IMG/VR virus record: IMGVR_UViG_3300032607_001214
Location: 1 to 23,776 of that record
DNA: 23,776 nucleotides
Direction: 5' to 3' (one strand)
Origin: a virus
Under the pieces are notes generated by a model. The model was not told the DNA's origin. It saw only the letters and a list, made by a program, of their open reading frames with translations, and ran no database searches. The number at the start of each line of letters is the position of its first letter. The stretch's first letter is position 1. Of the stretch, positions 344 to 13,148 are shown in pieces. The translations under genes were made by a program, and so were the position numbers.

Positions 344-3300
344 TTAAATTCTACGGCCGTATGTATTATCTATCGCTATATTATACGCTTTTTTGAAATC
401 AATTTTACTTTGTATCTCTTCAACTGTTTTTTCACCAAACTTTATTATAGTTGGCTGACTAGCCATACTTTCTATGATAGAAATTAATCTATCTAATTTA
501 GAACCCAACGCATCTCCAACATCACCCTTCGCTTTACCAGGTGCTTCACCAGGAGGTACACCTGTAACTGTTGGTGGTGCTGCTGTTGTAGATGGTGTAG
601 TAGTTTGTGGAATACTTGTTATTGCTGCTGTTGTAGCTGGTGTAGTAGTTTGTGGAATACTTGTTATTGTTGATTTTGCTGTATATTCATTTGCTTTATT
701 TGCTGCGGATGCCGGTTTACTTTCTTCAGTACCACCACCACCAAATAATGAAGTTATCCCACCCATAATAGAACCAACTACATTAGCAACACCCCCACCA
801 CCGCCAACTTTATCCATAACTGTAGATAATTTATCAACATCAAGTGTTGAAATAGTATCGGAAAGTTTTTTTAGTGAATCTGATATTTGACTAAATGCTT
901 TTGCTGCACCAGATATTTTTTCTGGATTTAACTTAGTAACAAGTTCACTCATTTGCTCTAATGGACTTTTACCTCCAGCCAAACTACTAAGTCCTTCCAT
1001 AAGTCCACCACTCATGTTTTTCATCAATCCACTTAAAGCGTCACCAAATTCTTCTAATTTACTAGCATCGATATTACCCAAATGCTCTGCCATGACTTTC
1101 ATAGCAACACCAATACCTGCAATACCGGCAACAACAGCACCAATTGTTTTTGGGTCAACCTTATCTAAGATTGTTATTAATTGGTCTATTGGACTGTCAC
1201 CACCGACTAAACTACCGAGACCCTCCATAAGTGCACCTGCACCAGCACCTGCACCAAATCCGGCAAGAGCACCACCTAATATAACTATACCCGCTGCAAT
1301 TGCCATTAATGTTAATGGATTGATACCAGTTATAGCCATAAGTTTATCGACTATTTTTACTATATTATCACCAATCGTATTTATTATGTTAACTATCTGT
1401 GTGCCTATTGTACTCATTACGCTTGCAATACCTTCAAACACAGTTTTTACAATTGGACCAATTTCTTTTATTGCCGCAATAAATACTGTACCAAGAACTT
1501 CAGCAACTCTAATCAATACTGGCATAAAAGCGGTTAGAACTATACCAACAGTTTCTATTACTTTTTGTATTATGGGTCCTGCAACTTCTAACGCCTTAAC
1601 CAATGCTACACCTATAATTTCTACAAACTTCATTAATACGGGAGCAATTGCTTTTATTGCAGGTGCTGCCATAAGTAGTGAAGCACCCAACGCTAAGAAA
1701 AATAAACCAACTGCAACCCCAACTGGACCAATAGGAGTCATTGTTGCTAATGATTGTCCAAGCGCTTCTATTCCTTTTCCTATTCCTGTTAAAATTCCTT
1801 GAAATGCACCACCAATACCTGTACCAATTGATTGTATAGCAGAACCCAATCCTTTACCGAAATCAGCAATTTTATCACCCATAGATTTAGCACCATCTGC
1901 TAGTTTAGATGTTTTATCAAGATTTGCTGTTTGTGTATCTAACATTTTACTTGTGGCATCTCCACCACCTGCATCACCACCTGCCCCTGTGAGTTTACCC
2001 AATGCCTTTTGTGCAAATCCGCCCATTTTTCCAGGTAATTTTCCTGCTACCTTACTTGCCAATCCACCCATCTTTCCAGTTAATTTTCCTGTCACTTTAC
2101 TTGCAGCACCACCAACTTTACTCATCAATGTTGTACCCAAATCCATAGCTTTATCTTTAAGCATCCCTAAACCCTTTCCAATCAAAGCCTTACCTGCAAA
2201 AGCTGCACCTATTAATCCAACTAACTTTAGAACACCACCAAATCCTGATTCTACTTCTTTAACTGGTTTGGTTATTTTATTTACACCGTCAGATACACCC
2301 TTCACAGTTTTTCCAACTTGTTCTGTTTTTTCTTCTACACTACCAAATAATGAAGCAACCCATGAAAGTGGTTTAACTAACATAGATATAATACTGAATG
2401 TGAATTTGAATGCAGGAATCATACCAGCTAAAATAATTTTAATTATAACACCAAGTATAGATAAAATTGGTTTTATAGAATTAACAACATCATCAAATAC
2501 TGCCATAATACCGCCACCTGCGTCTTTTGCGTCAAATAATCCATGAACCATTTCAACAATAGGAAACATAAGTGATTCAAATTTTTCTTTCACTTTTGTC
2601 ATTATGTCACCGAGTTTTTCTGCCATTGTGGCGGAATCTTTTTCTGCAGCCATACTTGTTAACTTAGCGGCCAAATCACCTTTTCCTGCTTGACGAGCTT
2701 TTTCTGCTTCTTCTCTTAAACCAACGGCATTTTGATATTGTTTTTCTTCTAATTTTGCAGCACTCAAACCAACATTTTTTAGTTCTTCACCCTTGGCTAA
2801 CATAGTAGTCATTTCTTCAACAGACATACCAAACGCTTTTGCCATAGATTCTTGTTGAAGTACATTCATTTTTTTGAAATCTTCCATAGAACCCATTTGA
2901 GTTAATATCTCATCTTGTAATTTAGCAGTTAAACCGTTCAATGCGTAACCCCTTGCAGCATCAAAGTTTATATTTTTACCAGTTAACACCCTAGCTTCCA
3001 TTTCTGCTGATAATGAGGATTCAATATCTAACATTCCTCTACCTACTTTTTGAATTGATTCCAAGGTAGTTCCGTACAATTTTGCTTTTTGAGCAGCTTT
3101 AATAAGTTCTTGTGTTGTACCCTTAAATGCAACGGTAACTTGCTTTGGTATTTCAGCTAAAGTTTTCATTGCTGCTTTATCTGTTAGTAAACCTTTACCC
3201 AATTTTGTTGTTTGGTTTACTAAACTACCAACACTTGTACCAGTTAAAGTTGCCAATGTTTGTATATTTCCAATCTCATCTGCACTCAAACCAAACTTCT

Positions 3301-4771: not shown

Positions 4772-4803
4772 AAAAAGTCCGTATAAATAAATATACGGAC
4801 TTT
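4772..4803 (-). terminator. Intrinsic terminator after the gp26-like pair
   Basis: An 11-bp perfect stem (4774-4784 with 4793-4803, loop of 8) is followed on the minus strand by five T. It begins just after the stop of the 78-residue frame and before the tape measure start. Its loop contains a copy of the candidate promoter motif, so it may separate two transcription units. Confidence 0.85.
4786..4794 (-). promoter_or_regulatory. Candidate late promoter motif ATATTTATT
   Basis: Coding-strand ATATTTATT, 35 bases upstream of the tape measure start and inside the loop and arm of the preceding terminator hairpin. Same motif family as the other candidate promoters here. Confidence 0.35.
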
Positions 4804-4805
4804 GA

Positions 4806-5042
4806 TTATTTTGGTCTAAATGTAGGCATTGCTGGAGATTTAGATTTGCCTGACTCTTCATATTGTTTATTGTGTTCTTCAACTGCTTTAGAAACTTGCT
4901 TTATATAGAATCGTCTAAGGTGTATTGGTAAATTATAAACGTCATTCCACGTCCACCCGCCTTGTCCTCTATAACATAACACAAATAACTCTTCGTGCAA
5001 ACCTAATTTATAATCAGTTCCCAGGCCAAAAAAATGAAACAC
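4806..5042 (-). CDS. Small tail-assembly/baseplate protein overlapping the gp26-like gene; possible frameshift extension
   Basis: This 78-codon frame begins with GTG at 5042, 29 bases inside the end of the gp26-like gene and in the +1 frame relative to it. No good ribosome site sits at normal distance from the GTG, so it is made either by translational coupling or by a +1/-2 ribosomal shift on the T7 run at 5028-5034. A shift there would give a 357-residue fusion. The protein is soluble, with an aromatic segment GGWTWNDVYNLPIHLRRFYI followed by a charged helix. The order (longer gene, overlapping short frame, tape measure) matches the tail assembly chaperone layout of many tailed phages. The frame is well supported; the expression mode and function are inferred. 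Confidence 0.7.
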   Translation of the reverse strand: MFHFFGLGTDYKLGLHEELFVLCYRGQGGWTWNDVYNLPIHLRRFYIKQVSKAVEEHNKQYEESGKSKSPAMPTFRPK

Positions 5043-5880
5043 CCATAGGTATTTCCAACTCCTTCACCTCGCCAGTTGTATCTGAATTAAAAGTGTACGT
5101 TAAATCAAGGTCAGGTGATATTGATTTAATATATTGTCTTAAAGCACGTGAATCTGCTGCAAATAGTTCATTATCTACAAAATGATTTACCGCTGCTCTA
5201 CCACTTTCAGCGTCTACGGAAGTAATAATATGTTTGAGTCTTGTTGTAAGTTCCCTGTCAATTCCGGTTCTTACTAATGTCTTATTCATTGTTTTTAATT
5301 CTGCTTGGATGTCTTTTTCCAAAGCATGAGTCATTAAACGAAATGTTACTACTCTTTTTGAATTAGGTAGTTCGTAATCAAATTCGTTTACTCTCCTCTC
5401 AAATAAGCTGTAATCAACCTCCTTGTGCTCAATTTGAGTTAAATCTATTGTTACTTTTTGTTTTGTTCCAGGAGAGAATGGATCATCAACTTCGACTTGA
5501 TAATCTTTACCGTAACCCAATATTCTCGCTGCAACCATAATTGCGTTCTTGTCACCCATATATAAATCATTATAATTAACAGGAGTAACAATCAAAGACT
5601 CAAACAATTTGTCTAACACAACACCTTGTTTAATAAGGTTTTGTGATGTTAAAATATCTTCTTCCCTTGCAGTCATATACTTCATTTCAATCACGCCACT
5701 TTCAAGTGGATGACCTAATGGATATATAAGACCTTTTGAAGGTAAGGGGATAATTTCAGTTGGAAAGTTTGTACGTTTAACATCTGAAACTTTATGCTCA
5801 GATAGTAAGTGGGCTTTAATGTCAGCGTCAGAAGTAATTTCTCGTTGACCAACATCGTAGCCGGTTGGAATTTTAGTCAT
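5014..5880 (-). CDS. gp26-like baseplate / tail assembly protein
   Basis: The 288-residue protein contains LPSKGLIYPLGHPLESG and MKYMTAREEDILTSQN in its first third. These are hallmarks of the T4-type baseplate protein family usually annotated gp26, which acts in baseplate hub or tail assembly. The rest is mixed alpha/beta and soluble, without membrane segments. ATG 5880 has a TAGGAT ribosome site upstream. The last codons run over a T7 tract (SFFWPGN then stop), where the next short frame overlaps in +1. A candidate promoter motif lies 44 bases upstream and the FeoA-like frame ends in the same gap. It could be the shorter member of a chaperone pair. The family call is from memory of conserved motifs. 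Confidence 0.75.
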   Translation of the reverse strand: MTKIPTGYDVGQREITSDADIKAHLLSEHKVSDVKRTNFPTEIIPLPSKGLIYPLGHPLESGVIEMKYMTAREEDILTSQNLIKQGVVLDKLFESLIVTPVNYNDLYMGDKNAIMVAARILGYGKDYQVEVDDPFSPGTKQKVTIDLTQIEHKEVDYSLFERRVNEFDYELPNSKRVVTFRLMTHALEKDIQAELKTMNKTLVRTGIDRELTTRLKHIITSVDAESGRAAVNHFVDNELFAADSRALRQYIKSISPDLDLTYTFNSDTTGEVKELEIPMGVSFFWPGN

Positions 5881-5924: not shown

Positions 5925-5933
5925 TATAAATAT
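5925..5933 (-). promoter_or_regulatory. Candidate late promoter motif ATATTTATA
   Basis: Coding-strand ATATTTATA in the gap between the FeoA-like frame and the gp26-like gene, 44 bases upstream of the start at 5880. One of five exact copies upstream of genes in this window. Confidence 0.45.
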
Positions 5934-5949
5934 GATTAACTTAGAAAAA

Positions 5950-6183
5950 CTACCATTCTTCGTCAACCATAATAATATCTACTTTTGGGTCTGGCCTAAT
6001 TGCCAATCTCGTATAACCGTAATGAATCTCAGTTGGTCCACCAAACGGTGCTTTTCTAATAACAGTAAAGGTTGTACCAACAATTAATCCGAGTTCTTGT
6101 AAACGTCGGATGAATGGTGTATTGCTTCCATAATATACAATGGTTGCAATGGAGTCTTTATGTAAACTACAAAAGTGTTTGAT
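5950..6183 (-). CDS. feoA: FeoA-like small SH3-type protein, no canonical start codon
   Basis: The gap between gp19 and the gp26-like gene holds an open frame ending at TAG 5950-5952. It translates to a FeoA-like domain: RRLQELGLIVGTTFTV, then RKAPFGGPTEI and a closing strand IIMVDEEW, matching the FeoA pattern LxELGLxxG...xxAPxGxP. FeoA is a ~75-residue cytosolic partner of the FeoB ferrous iron transporter. The frame is full length (77 codons from 6183), and homology-like sequence reaches back to about LHKDS. No in-frame ATG, GTG or TTG exists before an upstream TAA, so the listed 5' end (ATC) is arbitrary. The frame begins exactly where the U-tract of the gp19 terminator ends. An ATG at 6225, inside that hairpin, would join the frame if the T6 run had one T fewer. 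It may use a rare start, contain a base error, or be decayed. Confidence 0.72.
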   Translation of the reverse strand: MKHFCSLHKDSIATIVYYGSNTPFIRRLQELGLIVGTTFTVIRKAPFGGPTEIHYGYTRLAIRPDPKVDIIMVDEEW

Positions 6184-6228
6184 AAAAAATCCCCATACTT
6201 ACTAATATTTCTATTAATAAGTATGGGG
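6184..6228 (-). terminator. Intrinsic terminator after the tail tube gene
   Basis: An 11-bp stem (6191-6201 with 6218-6228, four G-C pairs at the base) is followed on the minus strand by A then six T. It lies 27 bases after the tube gene stop, so it should end the abundant sheath/tube transcript. The FeoA-like frame starts immediately after the T run. Confidence 0.88.
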
Positions 6229-6254: not shown

Positions 6255-6743
6255 TTAGTATTGAAGGATAGCGTAATCGTATGCTAATGTGAGTCCAATC
6301 TCAACAAATGCGTCGTTTGCCCAATCCATATCACCAAATGTAGTAGCGGTGATAAATGCACCTTTAATAGTCCATTCTTCAATCTTATCACCAACTGGAC
6401 CAAGTACATGAAGTGTTAAATCTTTCTTGTAGAAGTCAGAATAACCATCACGACCAGTTACAGATTCATGTGATAAACGAACCCATTCCATTACCGCTTG
6501 TGCAGCAGAAGGAACGATTGGATCGTATAATTTAATAGAAATATCTTGCCATTCGCCCTTACCTTTTACTTTACGTTTAATATTAATGTGATCGAGCGTG
6601 ATAGGGTTAAAGCTAATGTTAGGTCTACCAGCACCTTTCACTAAATAAGCAGGAACACCCTCGATGTACAAAATAAATCTATTTTGTAACTTCGGCTCAA
6701 ACGGGGTAAAAAATATTTCCGTGGGGTCAAGTAATTCAGCCAT
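6255..6743 (-). CDS. gp19: Tail tube protein (gp19-like)
   Basis: This 162-residue protein, the same size as T4 gp19 (163), should form the hexameric rings of the inner tail tube. It begins MAELLDPTEIFFTPFEPKLQ and contains the family segments LQNRFILYIEGVPAYLVK and WTIKGAFITATTFGDMDW, with a final beta-strand region. There is no membrane segment. ATG 6743 follows a GGAGATATAA ribosome site. It sits directly downstream of the sheath gene, as in T4, but a terminator separates the two and a candidate promoter motif lies 31 bases upstream, so it can probably be transcribed separately. A second terminator follows. Identification is strong from sequence pattern, size and neighbour. Confidence 0.93.
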   Translation of the reverse strand: MAELLDPTEIFFTPFEPKLQNRFILYIEGVPAYLVKGAGRPNISFNPITLDHINIKRKVKGKGEWQDISIKLYDPIVPSAAQAVMEWVRLSHESVTGRDGYSDFYKKDLTLHVLGPVGDKIEEWTIKGAFITATTFGDMDWANDAFVEIGLTLAYDYAILQY

Positions 6744-6835: not shown

Positions 6836-9277
6836 TTACGCACCTGGAAACGCAGCACCTGTTGATTGAATGTTGAAATCAAGAATAATGAATTCAGCAG
6901 TTTTTGCAGGTTGTAAGAACAATTGTCCGTACAATATGTTGCGATCTATAATGTCTGGCGTATTGTTACTCTCATCCATGATAACACGGAATGCGTATAA
7001 ACCTTGACGTTGTTGTATTGACTCAAGATATGGGTTCACGATGTTCAAGAAGCGAGTTCTTGTTTGTGAAGTGTTTTGTTCAAACACTAAGTATCTTGTA
7101 GAAGAAGCGATAAACTTCTTAGTTGCAATTAACAAACGACGAACATTAATACGGTCAAGAGCAGATGGACGACCTTGAAGTGTCTTTTGTCCCCATACAC
7201 ATACACCAGTTGATGGAAATACTGCGATAGGATTAATACGACCTTCATATAATGAATCACGTTCTGCGTGTGTTAATCTTGTTTTAACTTCAACAACTTC
7301 TGTTAAGCCACCACGATTTAAGCCAGCAGGAGCAAACCATTCAGCAGACACACGGTCATTGAATGCTATTACACCAGGAAGAACTACTGAAGGTGGAACC
7401 CAGATTGGTTTGTTTCTATCGAAATCAAGAATTTTAACCCAAGGATAATATGTTGCTGCATAGTTTGTATCTAAACCTTCAAGTGAAGATACCGCTGTTG
7501 CAATATTATCGGAAATTTGTGAGTTATCCATTACAAAGAAACAATCACCACGGTCTTCACAAACATCAATTACGTGTGTTGTAATTGCTGAGTGTATTGA
7601 ATGAAGAACACCTGGTGTTACAACTAAGTTAATATCAAATTCATCTGCGTTTGAAATAGCATCGACTGCTTTTTTATAAGATGTATAACCAGCTGAAGAG
7701 TTTGATGAAATATCAAAGCCTTGTGTGTTACCTGCTAATATATAAGTACCTATCTTTTTTTGTAAGTTTGGTTTGTGACCATCAAATCCACCTTGAAACG
7801 GTAACATAAATTTACGTGAATCAAGAGAAGTATTTGTACTTAAATCAATAGATGCAGTATATGATGTTGCAGATGATGGGAAATTAGCTGCAGCATTTTG
7901 AGAAAAGTTACCTAAGTAGAAATCTATATTAGAGCCAGTTGACTGATTTGCTGCAATTGGTAATGAACGTAAGTAATTAAAGTTATCTGTGTTAGCGAAA
8001 TCATAATTGAATCCCCAGAACACTCTTCTGTTATATGAACCACCAGAAAGTTGGTCAGATACATAAGAACAAGCAGGGGGTTGAGTGAATGCACTTGGAA
8101 TTGGAGTAGCAAGAGCACGGAAACCGAATGGCACTAAGTTTGGAGAAACTGCACCGTTTGCTACTGCTTCTGTTGTTTCTACACGAATATATTTTGATTT
8201 ATTAGAATAATCACCGTTTACAATAACTTTACCGTCATCATCAACTGTAATGTATCTATCACCAACAACTCTTGCAATATATTTAGGAGAATTTGGATCG
8301 AGATTACACTTGAATTGTTCAACTATTGTTGGGCGAATATCTTCGTCTTGTGAATTGAATGGTGTCTGTGGTAATTTGGATTGATCAACGAATCTAACGA
8401 TAACATCGAAATCACCATATTCAGAACCTGCAATTGTACCAGCAGGACGAATGTTTGAAATACCAACTTTGGTTTCATAGTTAGAATGAATACCATGGGA
8501 TAAAGTATGAAACTTAAATAAATCAGATTTTATATTACCGATTAATTGAGAATTAACCCAAGGAGTTGCTGCTTCAAGATAATCGTCTGTAAAGTCCCAT
8601 GGAGAACCAGCAGAACCAGTTTCAATAGAAATAACAACGGAAGCGTCTGCTGCTAAAGAAGCGGATGCTTGTTTTTTAAAGTTTACGTAGTTATAAACTG
8701 CGTGTGTACCGTAAGGATTATATCCATATAAATCACCGATATATGAATTATTTTCTGGATTAATAGAAGAACTAAATGCTGTTCCATTTTCATTTGTTGC
8801 ATTTGTAAATGTTGATGTGTCTGTTGTAAATGCACCAGAAACAGTCAATACAAAAGAACCTGTTCCACCTGAAGTAAGAATAGAATTTGCAAACAATGAA
8901 GTAGAATCGCCACTTGTTACAACAAATGTTGGATGTAAAAAGGATATTAATTTCCTACCTTGTCCAGAACCACTTGCTACAATAGCAATTGGGTGTTTTA
9001 ATGAGTATCCACCTGAACCAAGTACACGAACTATTGTTGCACTACCTGCATTATTTAGATAGTTTTTAGCTGTGTATGGTAAATATGATTGTTCGTAAGT
9101 ACCGCCAAATTTTGTAACAAAATCGCTGTATCCCTGAACAAGTGTTGGGACGAAAGCCGGTCCCTTCATAGTTGGTCCAATAAGTGCAGCACCAATTTGT
9201 CCTATCCCTTGTTGAAGGAAAGATAGATCGTTTTCGTTGGTAAAAACACCAGGACTTACAATTCTTTCTGTAGCCAC
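6836..9277 (-). CDS. gp18: Tail sheath protein (gp18-like)
   Basis: The contractile sheath subunit, 813 residues from GTG 9277. That start is chosen because GGAG lies at normal distance before it; a TTG at 9289 would overlap the ribosome site. The N-terminus (MATERIVSPGVFTNENDLSF, then IGAALIGPTMKGP) is the typical sheath opening. The C-terminal domain shows VCVWGQKTLQGRPSALDRIN, VRRLLIATKKFI and IIDRNILYGQLFLQPAKTAE, the conserved core that packs around the tube. It is longer than T4 gp18 (659); the extra length lies in the middle, in Ser/Thr/Asn-rich surface domains at roughly residues 100-480. It is followed by its own terminator and then the tube gene. Very secure. Confidence 0.97.
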   Translation of the reverse strand: MATERIVSPGVFTNENDLSFLQQGIGQIGAALIGPTMKGPAFVPTLVQGYSDFVTKFGGTYEQSYLPYTAKNYLNNAGSATIVRVLGSGGYSLKHPIAIVASGSGQGRKLISFLHPTFVVTSGDSTSLFANSILTSGGTGSFVLTVSGAFTTDTSTFTNATNENGTAFSSSINPENNSYIGDLYGYNPYGTHAVYNYVNFKKQASASLAADASVVISIETGSAGSPWDFTDDYLEAATPWVNSQLIGNIKSDLFKFHTLSHGIHSNYETKVGISNIRPAGTIAGSEYGDFDVIVRFVDQSKLPQTPFNSQDEDIRPTIVEQFKCNLDPNSPKYIARVVGDRYITVDDDGKVIVNGDYSNKSKYIRVETTEAVANGAVSPNLVPFGFRALATPIPSAFTQPPACSYVSDQLSGGSYNRRVFWGFNYDFANTDNFNYLRSLPIAANQSTGSNIDFYLGNFSQNAAANFPSSATSYTASIDLSTNTSLDSRKFMLPFQGGFDGHKPNLQKKIGTYILAGNTQGFDISSNSSAGYTSYKKAVDAISNADEFDINLVVTPGVLHSIHSAITTHVIDVCEDRGDCFFVMDNSQISDNIATAVSSLEGLDTNYAATYYPWVKILDFDRNKPIWVPPSVVLPGVIAFNDRVSAEWFAPAGLNRGGLTEVVEVKTRLTHAERDSLYEGRINPIAVFPSTGVCVWGQKTLQGRPSALDRINVRRLLIATKKFIASSTRYLVFEQNTSQTRTRFLNIVNPYLESIQQRQGLYAFRVIMDESNNTPDIIDRNILYGQLFLQPAKTAEFIILDFNIQSTGAAFPGA

Positions 9278-12419: not shown

Positions 12420-13148
12420 TTACTTCTCAGTTTTTGTTTCATCAAAATATTGTAATATACTATCAACAATTGGATGGCGGTGGTTAGTTAACAATTCATA
12501 AACCCCTAATCCTTTAATTTTGTCTTTCATATTATATAAATATGGTAATCCAGAATCTTTCTTATTTTTAAGGTCAATTTGTGCAGAATCACCTGTTAGG
12601 ATCATTTTTGAATTAACCCCAAGTCTTGAAAGAATCATCTCTAATTGTACTTTAGTTACATTCTGGCATTCATCTACAATTACACAAGACTTAACAAATG
12701 TTCTACCACGTAGAAAACTTATAGGTGCGATTTCAATTTTATCTTCTTGTATTAATTTGTCAACTTTTTCTTTACCGGATAACATTGCCATGTTTGCATG
12801 AATAGGAGATAACCATGGATCCATTTTTTCTTTTATATTTCCAGGTAAAAACCCAAGATCTTCATTTGATACGGTTGGTCTTGTAATTATAATTTTATCA
12901 ACTTCTTTATAATAAAGACATTCCAGTGCAATTTGAGTTGCTAATAAGGTTTTACCAGATCCTGCTTTTCCTAAAAAAACAGAAACGGTATCTAGCAATG
13001 CTTCTGATTTAATATTTTTTTGTTCTTCGTTTAATGATAAGTGAAACCCTATTTTATTTTTTATCGTTTTTCTTCCTTTCTTTATATCAGGACCATTTAA
13101 TCCAACAACATTTTTATTTTCATTCATTTCGTTATGGGTTAAATCCAT
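12420..13148 (-). CDS. phoH: PhoH-like P-loop ATPase
   Basis: A 242-residue PhoH family protein. Walker A is GKAGSGKT at residues 60-67 and Walker B is VIVDE at 156-160, followed by CQN. Other family marks are IIITRPTV (86-93), LGFLPGNIKEKMDPW (98-112) and LTGDSAQID (184-192). PhoH proteins are cytosolic ATPases related to the helicase-like PhoH2 core; the role of phage copies is unresolved, though they are common in marine phages and have been linked to phosphate stress. Only the ATPase domain is present, with a ~50-residue lead; no PIN or KH domain is visible. ATG 13148 follows AGGAG. It lies inside the head-neck cluster, between a membrane GAF-like protein and gp13, so it is probably expressed late. 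Confidence 0.97.
   Translation of the reverse strand: MDLTHNEMNENKNVVGLNGPDIKKGRKTIKNKIGFHLSLNEEQKNIKSEALLDTVSVFLGKAGSGKTLLATQIALECLYYKEVDKIIITRPTVSNEDLGFLPGNIKEKMDPWLSPIHANMAMLSGKEKVDKLIQEDKIEIAPISFLRGRTFVKSCVIVDECQNVTKVQLEMILSRLGVNSKMILTGDSAQIDLKNKKDSGLPYLYNMKDKIKGLGVYELLTNHRHPIVDSILQYFDETKTEK

Follow-up and report, generated by a model that had tools for sequence, protein, structure and literature searches.

The locus described here raises the question of whether a gene lacking all usual start codons, lodged between two tail genes of a phage, is a working gene, and from which codon it would be translated. The window, meaning the whole analysed stretch of 23,776 bases from a single virus record, carries T4-like genes, including those for the capsid protein Gp23 and the prohead protease, the sheath, the tube, a gp26-like protein and the tape measure. 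A PhoH-like gene (12420-13148, minus strand) is also seen among the head and tail genes. The upstream neighbour of the locus is the tail tube gene (6255..6743, minus strand), identified through phrog_4542 (92.1 bits); its score against Pfam gp19, 26 bits, is under the cut-off of 28.2. The downstream neighbour is the gp26-like baseplate gene (5014..5880, minus strand), identified through Pfam T4_baseplate (32.3 bits) and phrog_150 (baseplate hub). With the tube stop at 6255 and the gp26-like start at 5880, the gap amounts to 374 bases, exactly as originally predicted. It contains a stop-to-stop open frame of 82 codons plus TAG (5950-6198, minus strand) with no ATG, GTG or TTG ahead of a FeoA-like domain; two later in-frame codons of this kind, TTG (codon 65) and ATG (codon 77), both fall within that domain, and so does an extra TTG at codon 33 in two other contigs (L008 and L009). 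The proposed feoA coding sequence (5950..6183, minus strand) has an AUC start, 77 codons for amino acids and a TAG stop. Start-codon rules miss this frame because its start appears to be AUC, which is very rare, and not AUG.

The identity of the predicted protein is well defined. The frame matched the Pfam family PF04023 (FeoA) with 50.6 bits (E 2.1e-13, cut-off 23), residues 12-69 lying on profile positions 6-64 of 74, and its best solved relative by sequence is the FeoA of S. maltophilia (3mhx, E 1.3e-5). A structural model calculated from the AUC codon onward with eight aligned rows reached a pLDDT of 83.3 (83 over the first ten residues) and adopts the SH3-like fold of FeoA throughout its length, the solved FeoA chains scoring Z 7.0-12.1 against it. 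The FeoA of C. thermocellum (2k5l, Z 12.1) aligns with its residues 1-77 on model residues 1-77, that of B. fragilis (7r7b, Z 11.5) with 1-74 on 2-75, and chain 2k5f with 1-76 on 2-77, while the Klebsiella, E. coli and Pseudomonas structures align from residue 5, 6 or 9. DtxR/IdeR-type C-terminal domains are nearly equal in Z (4o6j, Z 11.8), as expected for a shared fold, and the fold alone therefore cannot single out FeoA. The length of 77 residues fits the usual 75-85 or so of free-standing FeoA, with which most of the FeoA chains compared agree. It is near certain that the frame belongs to the FeoA family, and the domain assignment of the original prediction is thus upheld by profile and predicted fold. 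Other searches gave no match in PHROGs, 25.8 bits for NCBIfam PRK09555 (under its cut-off of 102), nothing at E ≤ 0.001 in the BFVD fold search, and five matches to RNA families, none at its gathering score.

Eight further IMG/VR contigs encode the frame at 90-100% identity, which together with the window makes nine contigs and six distinct sequences. The same eight contigs were recovered by an alignment scan, a core scan and one wide scan, and a wider pattern scan returned 11, the eight plus L115, L116 and L122. In L116 the FeoA match adjoins what looks by eye like a serine-acetyltransferase-like gene. A genome scan with exact-peptide patterns of the frame, a pattern type that limits its reach, returned 60 stretches and confirmed no relative. 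Among 20 phage records searched, a FeoA match was found only in the eight already known; a search of phage records gave one weak match (MT836361, 39%, with an ATG in its frame), and plasmid records 15 weak matches, the best at 45%. In all nine contigs the frame is open and uninterrupted by stops, ATG, GTG and TTG are missing ahead of the domain, and the run of six T (T6) is unchanged, which confirms the predicted gene without a normal start; a related phage with an intact usual start was not present among the nine. Since T6 and the ATC that follows it recur identically in nine contigs, the suggested base error is rejected.

The leader of the frame is compact. Behind the tube gene stands a 17-pair hairpin (6191..6228, minus strand; -24.6 kcal/mol, z -6.8), terminator-like for the tube transcript, with one C-A mismatch in the stem in three of the nine contigs. 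Its 5' arm contains a late-promoter-like motif (6217..6224, minus strand), which reads ATACTTAT, one base off, in six contigs including the window, and ATATTTAT in three. The 3' arm holds an ATG (6194..6196, minus strand), kept in all nine contigs, that opens a frame of nine codons ending in TAG, and it is overlapped by the Shine-Dalgarno-like sequence TGGGGA (6190..6195, minus strand). T6 itself (6184..6189, minus strand), correctly located in the original prediction, may act as a terminator-like U-tract, as a leader spacer and possibly as a slippage site, and is directly followed by the ATC (6181..6183, minus strand), invariant in 9/9 contigs. The view that the frame begins at the U-tract accordingly holds for this likely start and fails for the open frame as such, which extends into the hairpin arm.

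A role of the motif in transcription is suggested by its distribution. ATATTTAT also lies upstream of the gp26-like gene (5926..5933, minus strand; motif scan), and in the 110-kb sister contig G002 the coding strand has 29 copies of it and the other strand six. A start codon follows 30-55 bases downstream of 16 of the 29 coding-strand copies, compared with 2.9% of all positions, and in 13 of 21 intergenic cases the next start is found at 37-45 bases. The sequence probably represents a late promoter; of the six sites of the ATACTTAT variant in G002, only one is followed by a start in range. At two motif copies of G002 (L107-L112; contig positions 8839 and 106654) an ATG follows after just 12 bases; provided that the motif is a promoter, messages from there would be leaderless. 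Of the 80 loci L018-L097, 20 contain hairpins whose 5' half includes TATTTAT and which are followed by a T-run, 25 in total; a few of these hairpins are weak and AT-rich. One such hairpin in the window (4774-4803, minus strand) precedes the tape-measure gene. These hairpins are possibly a combined terminator/promoter element.

The start codon can be placed by several features of the sequence. The ATC sits 6 nt after TGGGGA and 41 nt after the promoter-like motif, a distance within the range common in this phage. In the duplex model the energy is -5.5 kcal/mol for ATC at spacing 6, against -1.0 for the ATT at codon 17 and +0.1 for the ATG at 6196; the value at ATC is better than that of 69% of 125 predicted genes (mechanical ORF calls) and is reached at 13% of random positions. 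Four inserts found at the same site in related phages (L031, L033, L049, L054) show a hairpin, a purine run, a T-run and then an ATG at the matching place, although the purine run of L033, 12 bases from its ATG, is looser than in L031 and L049; this layout, applied to the FeoA insert, puts the start at ATC 6183-6181. Several solved FeoA chains, aligned from the first or second residue of the model, and cellular relatives give a similar position. Of 20 cellular FeoA loci, 14 passed tblastn at E 1e-3 and were aligned, and as L208 and L216 are the same place, 13 are distinct. The start chosen for each, i.e. the first in-frame ATG or else the first GTG or TTG, lies at most three residues from the AUC residue in 11/13 and coincides with it in L220 and L222, those of L210 and L207 being 8 and 10 residues earlier. 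The rare start named among the options of the original prediction is hence the best supported one, and AUC at 6183-6181 is, on balance, the codon at which translation would begin.

Two other candidates fare worse. Initiation at the ATT of codon 17 (6150-6148) is less likely, for its Shine-Dalgarno is weak, part of the N-terminal fold and an invariant Leu would be lost, and in each of the 13 distinct cellular FeoA the start chosen is upstream of it. Readthrough of the tube stop with a -1 shift at T TTT TTA, a site recognized by eye, would require two recoding events.

As a start codon, AUC is very weak. Its introduction at the start of a B. subtilis reporter led to far lower expression, according to a passage of PMC10303841, and an excerpt of PMC5622118 reports, for 61,358 ancestral AUG starts, one switch to AUU and lists none to AUC. 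IF3 and codon-anticodon strength are treated in part of PMC10158994. Within the phage group itself, 260 distinct motif contexts comprised 204 with usual starts (189 ATG, 10 GTG, 5 TTG), 54 in which no candidate was seen, and two with odd starts (ATA and ATT), which look like chance occurrences inside genes. No second ATC start was present among these 260 contexts, and the FeoA start is therefore exceptional even in its own phage group; the scan for odd starts covered the plus strand of L018-L097, L107-L113 and L125, applied only where a usual start was out of range, and can miss some. A tentative explanation is that selection has kept the AUC, so that a host-derived FeoA is produced late at a low or IF3-controlled level and tunes the Fe(II) transporter of the host.

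An unlikely, though the most serious, alternative to the AUC start is that translation starts at the ATG 6196-6194 and enters the FeoA frame through a +1 slippage of the ribosome or RNA polymerase on T6, giving MGIF and then IKHFC. The original prediction had pointed to an ATG at 6225 that would join the frame if the run had one T fewer. That ATG belongs to the plus strand, the minus strand reading CAT at 6225-6223, and the loss of one T would instead connect the hairpin-arm ATG with the frame. Slippage at T6 thus keeps a small probability: the ATG, T6 and the TAG closing the unshifted nine-codon frame are identical in 9/9 contigs. Nevertheless, the ATG has no Shine-Dalgarno and lies 28 nt from the motif, whereas in the 21 intergenic cases of G002 the next start is never found at 28 and only twice at 26-27. 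It is also complementary to the CCCCAT of the 5' arm and may consequently be a by-product of the stem, and the 3' arms of L031, L049 and L054 are devoid of ATG, that of L033 having one elsewhere in the arm. Six T make a short run for RNA polymerase slippage.

The AUC start also has to be weighed against a newly inactivated feoA, whose frame would so far not have decayed after a recent loss of the start codon. The AUC would indeed yield very little product, and one loss could be common to all nine related contigs; because of this close relationship, the conservation of three bases is in itself weak evidence. When as many substitutions as observed are placed at random, 45% of draws stay free of stops, and a passage of PMC10210955 records a switch from ATG to ATC in a Neisseria gene copy that is disrupted and of doubtful function. 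Against such a loss stands the pattern of change among the contigs, every one of which has AUC. The 24 changes in codons 6-80 include 13 synonymous ones, compared with 6.5 expected under random change that keeps the observed numbers of transitions and transversions (P 0.0026), and pN/pS is 0.06-0.37 in the ten pairs computed. Furthermore, the 32 columns around the T-run and the first codons show no variation, and residues common to other FeoA are retained. Purifying selection on the frame is evident from these data, the decaying gene of the original prediction is disfavoured by the synonymous excess, and base error and advanced decay are excluded; a very recent loss of the start is improbable.

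The setting of feoA can be described from relatives of the phage. Tube-gene relatives were represented by the best 80 of at least 599, none of which gave a FeoA match (0/80); 62 of them reach the gp26-like gene, so that only those test the whole site, and in eight the sequence continues for less than 380 bases beyond the tube gene. Among the 15 relatives with a tube 88-94% identical, 12 have gaps of 104-131 bases and L031 one of 1,050, with no confident measurement for L025 and L032. Microcystis phage Mel-JY01, an annotated relative with a tube 86% identical, has a gap of 137 bases and no FeoA match. A gap above 300 bases occurs in 12 of the 62 measurable loci, some of which form near-identical pairs. 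The site between the tube and gp26-like genes is a hot spot for unrelated inserts. By eye, the larger gaps carry, for example, zinc-finger/nuclease-like and NAD-epimerase-like genes, and in L031, L048, L049, L054 and L055 look-alike nuclease-like genes of 269-296 aa with a zinc-finger start follow the tube gene; the latter, judged by eye, are possibly free-standing homing endonucleases.

Single-gene inserts of this kind are known as phage morons. Judged from its own promoter-like and terminator-like elements and its missing match in 80/80 relatives, feoA would be a moron-like insert: like morons, it is a single gene with its own promoter-like motif and terminator-like hairpin that was not found in close relatives. 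It differs from them in that one hairpin joins terminator-, promoter- and ribosome-site-like elements within about 45 bases, and in its non-AUG start.

Regarding the host, the GroEL encoded by G002 has its best match, at 80% identity, in Ignavibacteria bacterium UBA961, judged from the top 80 of at least 592 places. The phage GroEL gene, which matches Cpn60, lies together with a GroES-like gene (by eye) at L112:4668-6608. FeoA was sought in 294 genomes of the class and 395 sampled from the phylum around UBA961, a centring that favours this genome, and the best match (L216) was in the UBA961 genome itself, with 51% identity over 57 residues (E 7.7e-17), practically equalled by three other matches. 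The host suggested by the GroEL and FeoA matches is Ignavibacteria-like. In 8/8 genomes with the top GroEL matches, by title Ignavibacteria, Kapaibacterium, Chloroherpetonaceae and Bacteroidetes, the best FeoB match adjoins a FeoA match, whereas FeoB_N was found in 0/9 phage records, several of which are fragments. The role in iron import proposed in the original prediction is plausible in the light of the host-lineage gene order. The simplest reading is that a host-derived FeoA acts on host FeoB late in infection; it may stimulate or block uptake, and the sequence cannot tell which. The role of FeoA itself in the Feo system is debated. It is very improbable that the phage FeoA is instead a structural or assembly part of the tail and not an iron uptake protein, for although its place among tail genes behind a late-promoter-like motif and its generic SH3-like barrel would suit such a part, the FeoA match is missing from the 80 tube relatives, including the 62 that span the site, and from all but the known eight of the 20 phage records, the site accepts unrelated inserts, and the close sequences are cellular FeoA, a gene encoded beside feoB in the eight genomes checked.

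Taken together, the following course of events is proposed. A free-standing feoA, whose source was probably an Ignavibacteria-like host, would have entered a T4-like phage lineage as a single-gene insert between the tube and gp26-like genes. The hairpin would terminate tube transcription, while the promoter-like motif in its 5' arm would start a short new mRNA in or near the loop. Such an mRNA would keep the 3' arm only and lose the hairpin, by which TGGGGA would become exposed as a ribosome-binding site. Ribosomes would then start inefficiently at AUC 6183-6181 and produce a 77-residue FeoA at a low level late in infection, which presumably works on host FeoB. As a whole, from the host-derived insert and the hairpin-arm promoter to the inefficient AUC start and the action on FeoB, this model is held to be rather probable, its steps being deduced from the features described above.

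If AUC is the start, feoA would be a natural example of AUC initiation, conserved in nine phage contigs, and would show that start-codon rules can hide real phage genes. The case further suggests FeoA as a means by which a phage may influence ferrous-iron import in bacteria, and the hairpin, possibly combining terminator, promoter and ribosome site, would represent a compact cassette design. The protein family is already known; it is the phage setting that is unusual, the start codon that is exceptional, and the AUC that is conserved. For the fields of translation start and of host-derived phage genes the case appears surprising, although it is based on nine close relatives. No report of a phage-encoded FeoA was present among the matches listed from the open-access literature, in which feoA appears in a table of host genes in part of PMC10013915.

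Several known systems resemble this gene in part. The rare-start gene infC begins with AUU. Genes of the infC type share with feoA a weak near-cognate start combined with a Shine-Dalgarno; they differ in the codon, AUU versus AUC, and in autoregulation, none being known for feoA. An archaeal ATC start has been assigned by alignment to L12ae of Staphylothermus marinus, as stated in a passage of PMC2678158. Like the phage feoA, that gene lacks a usual start and its ATC was set by alignment with relatives, but it is a likely essential archaeal gene of one genome, whereas feoA is a phage insert found in nine contigs with a fitting leader. The Ignavibacteria-like cellular FeoA (e.g. L216) is close to the phage copy in identity (51%), length, core residues and start position (at most one residue off). 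In contrast to the phage copy, which stands alone with an AUC and a phage leader, the cellular gene begins with a normal start codon and immediately precedes feoB. A free-standing FeoA in a viral contig is also encoded by L122 (IMGVR_UViG_3300035698_027542; 735-959, minus strand), yet it is diverged (26% identical), starts with a normal ATG and has another gene neighbourhood.
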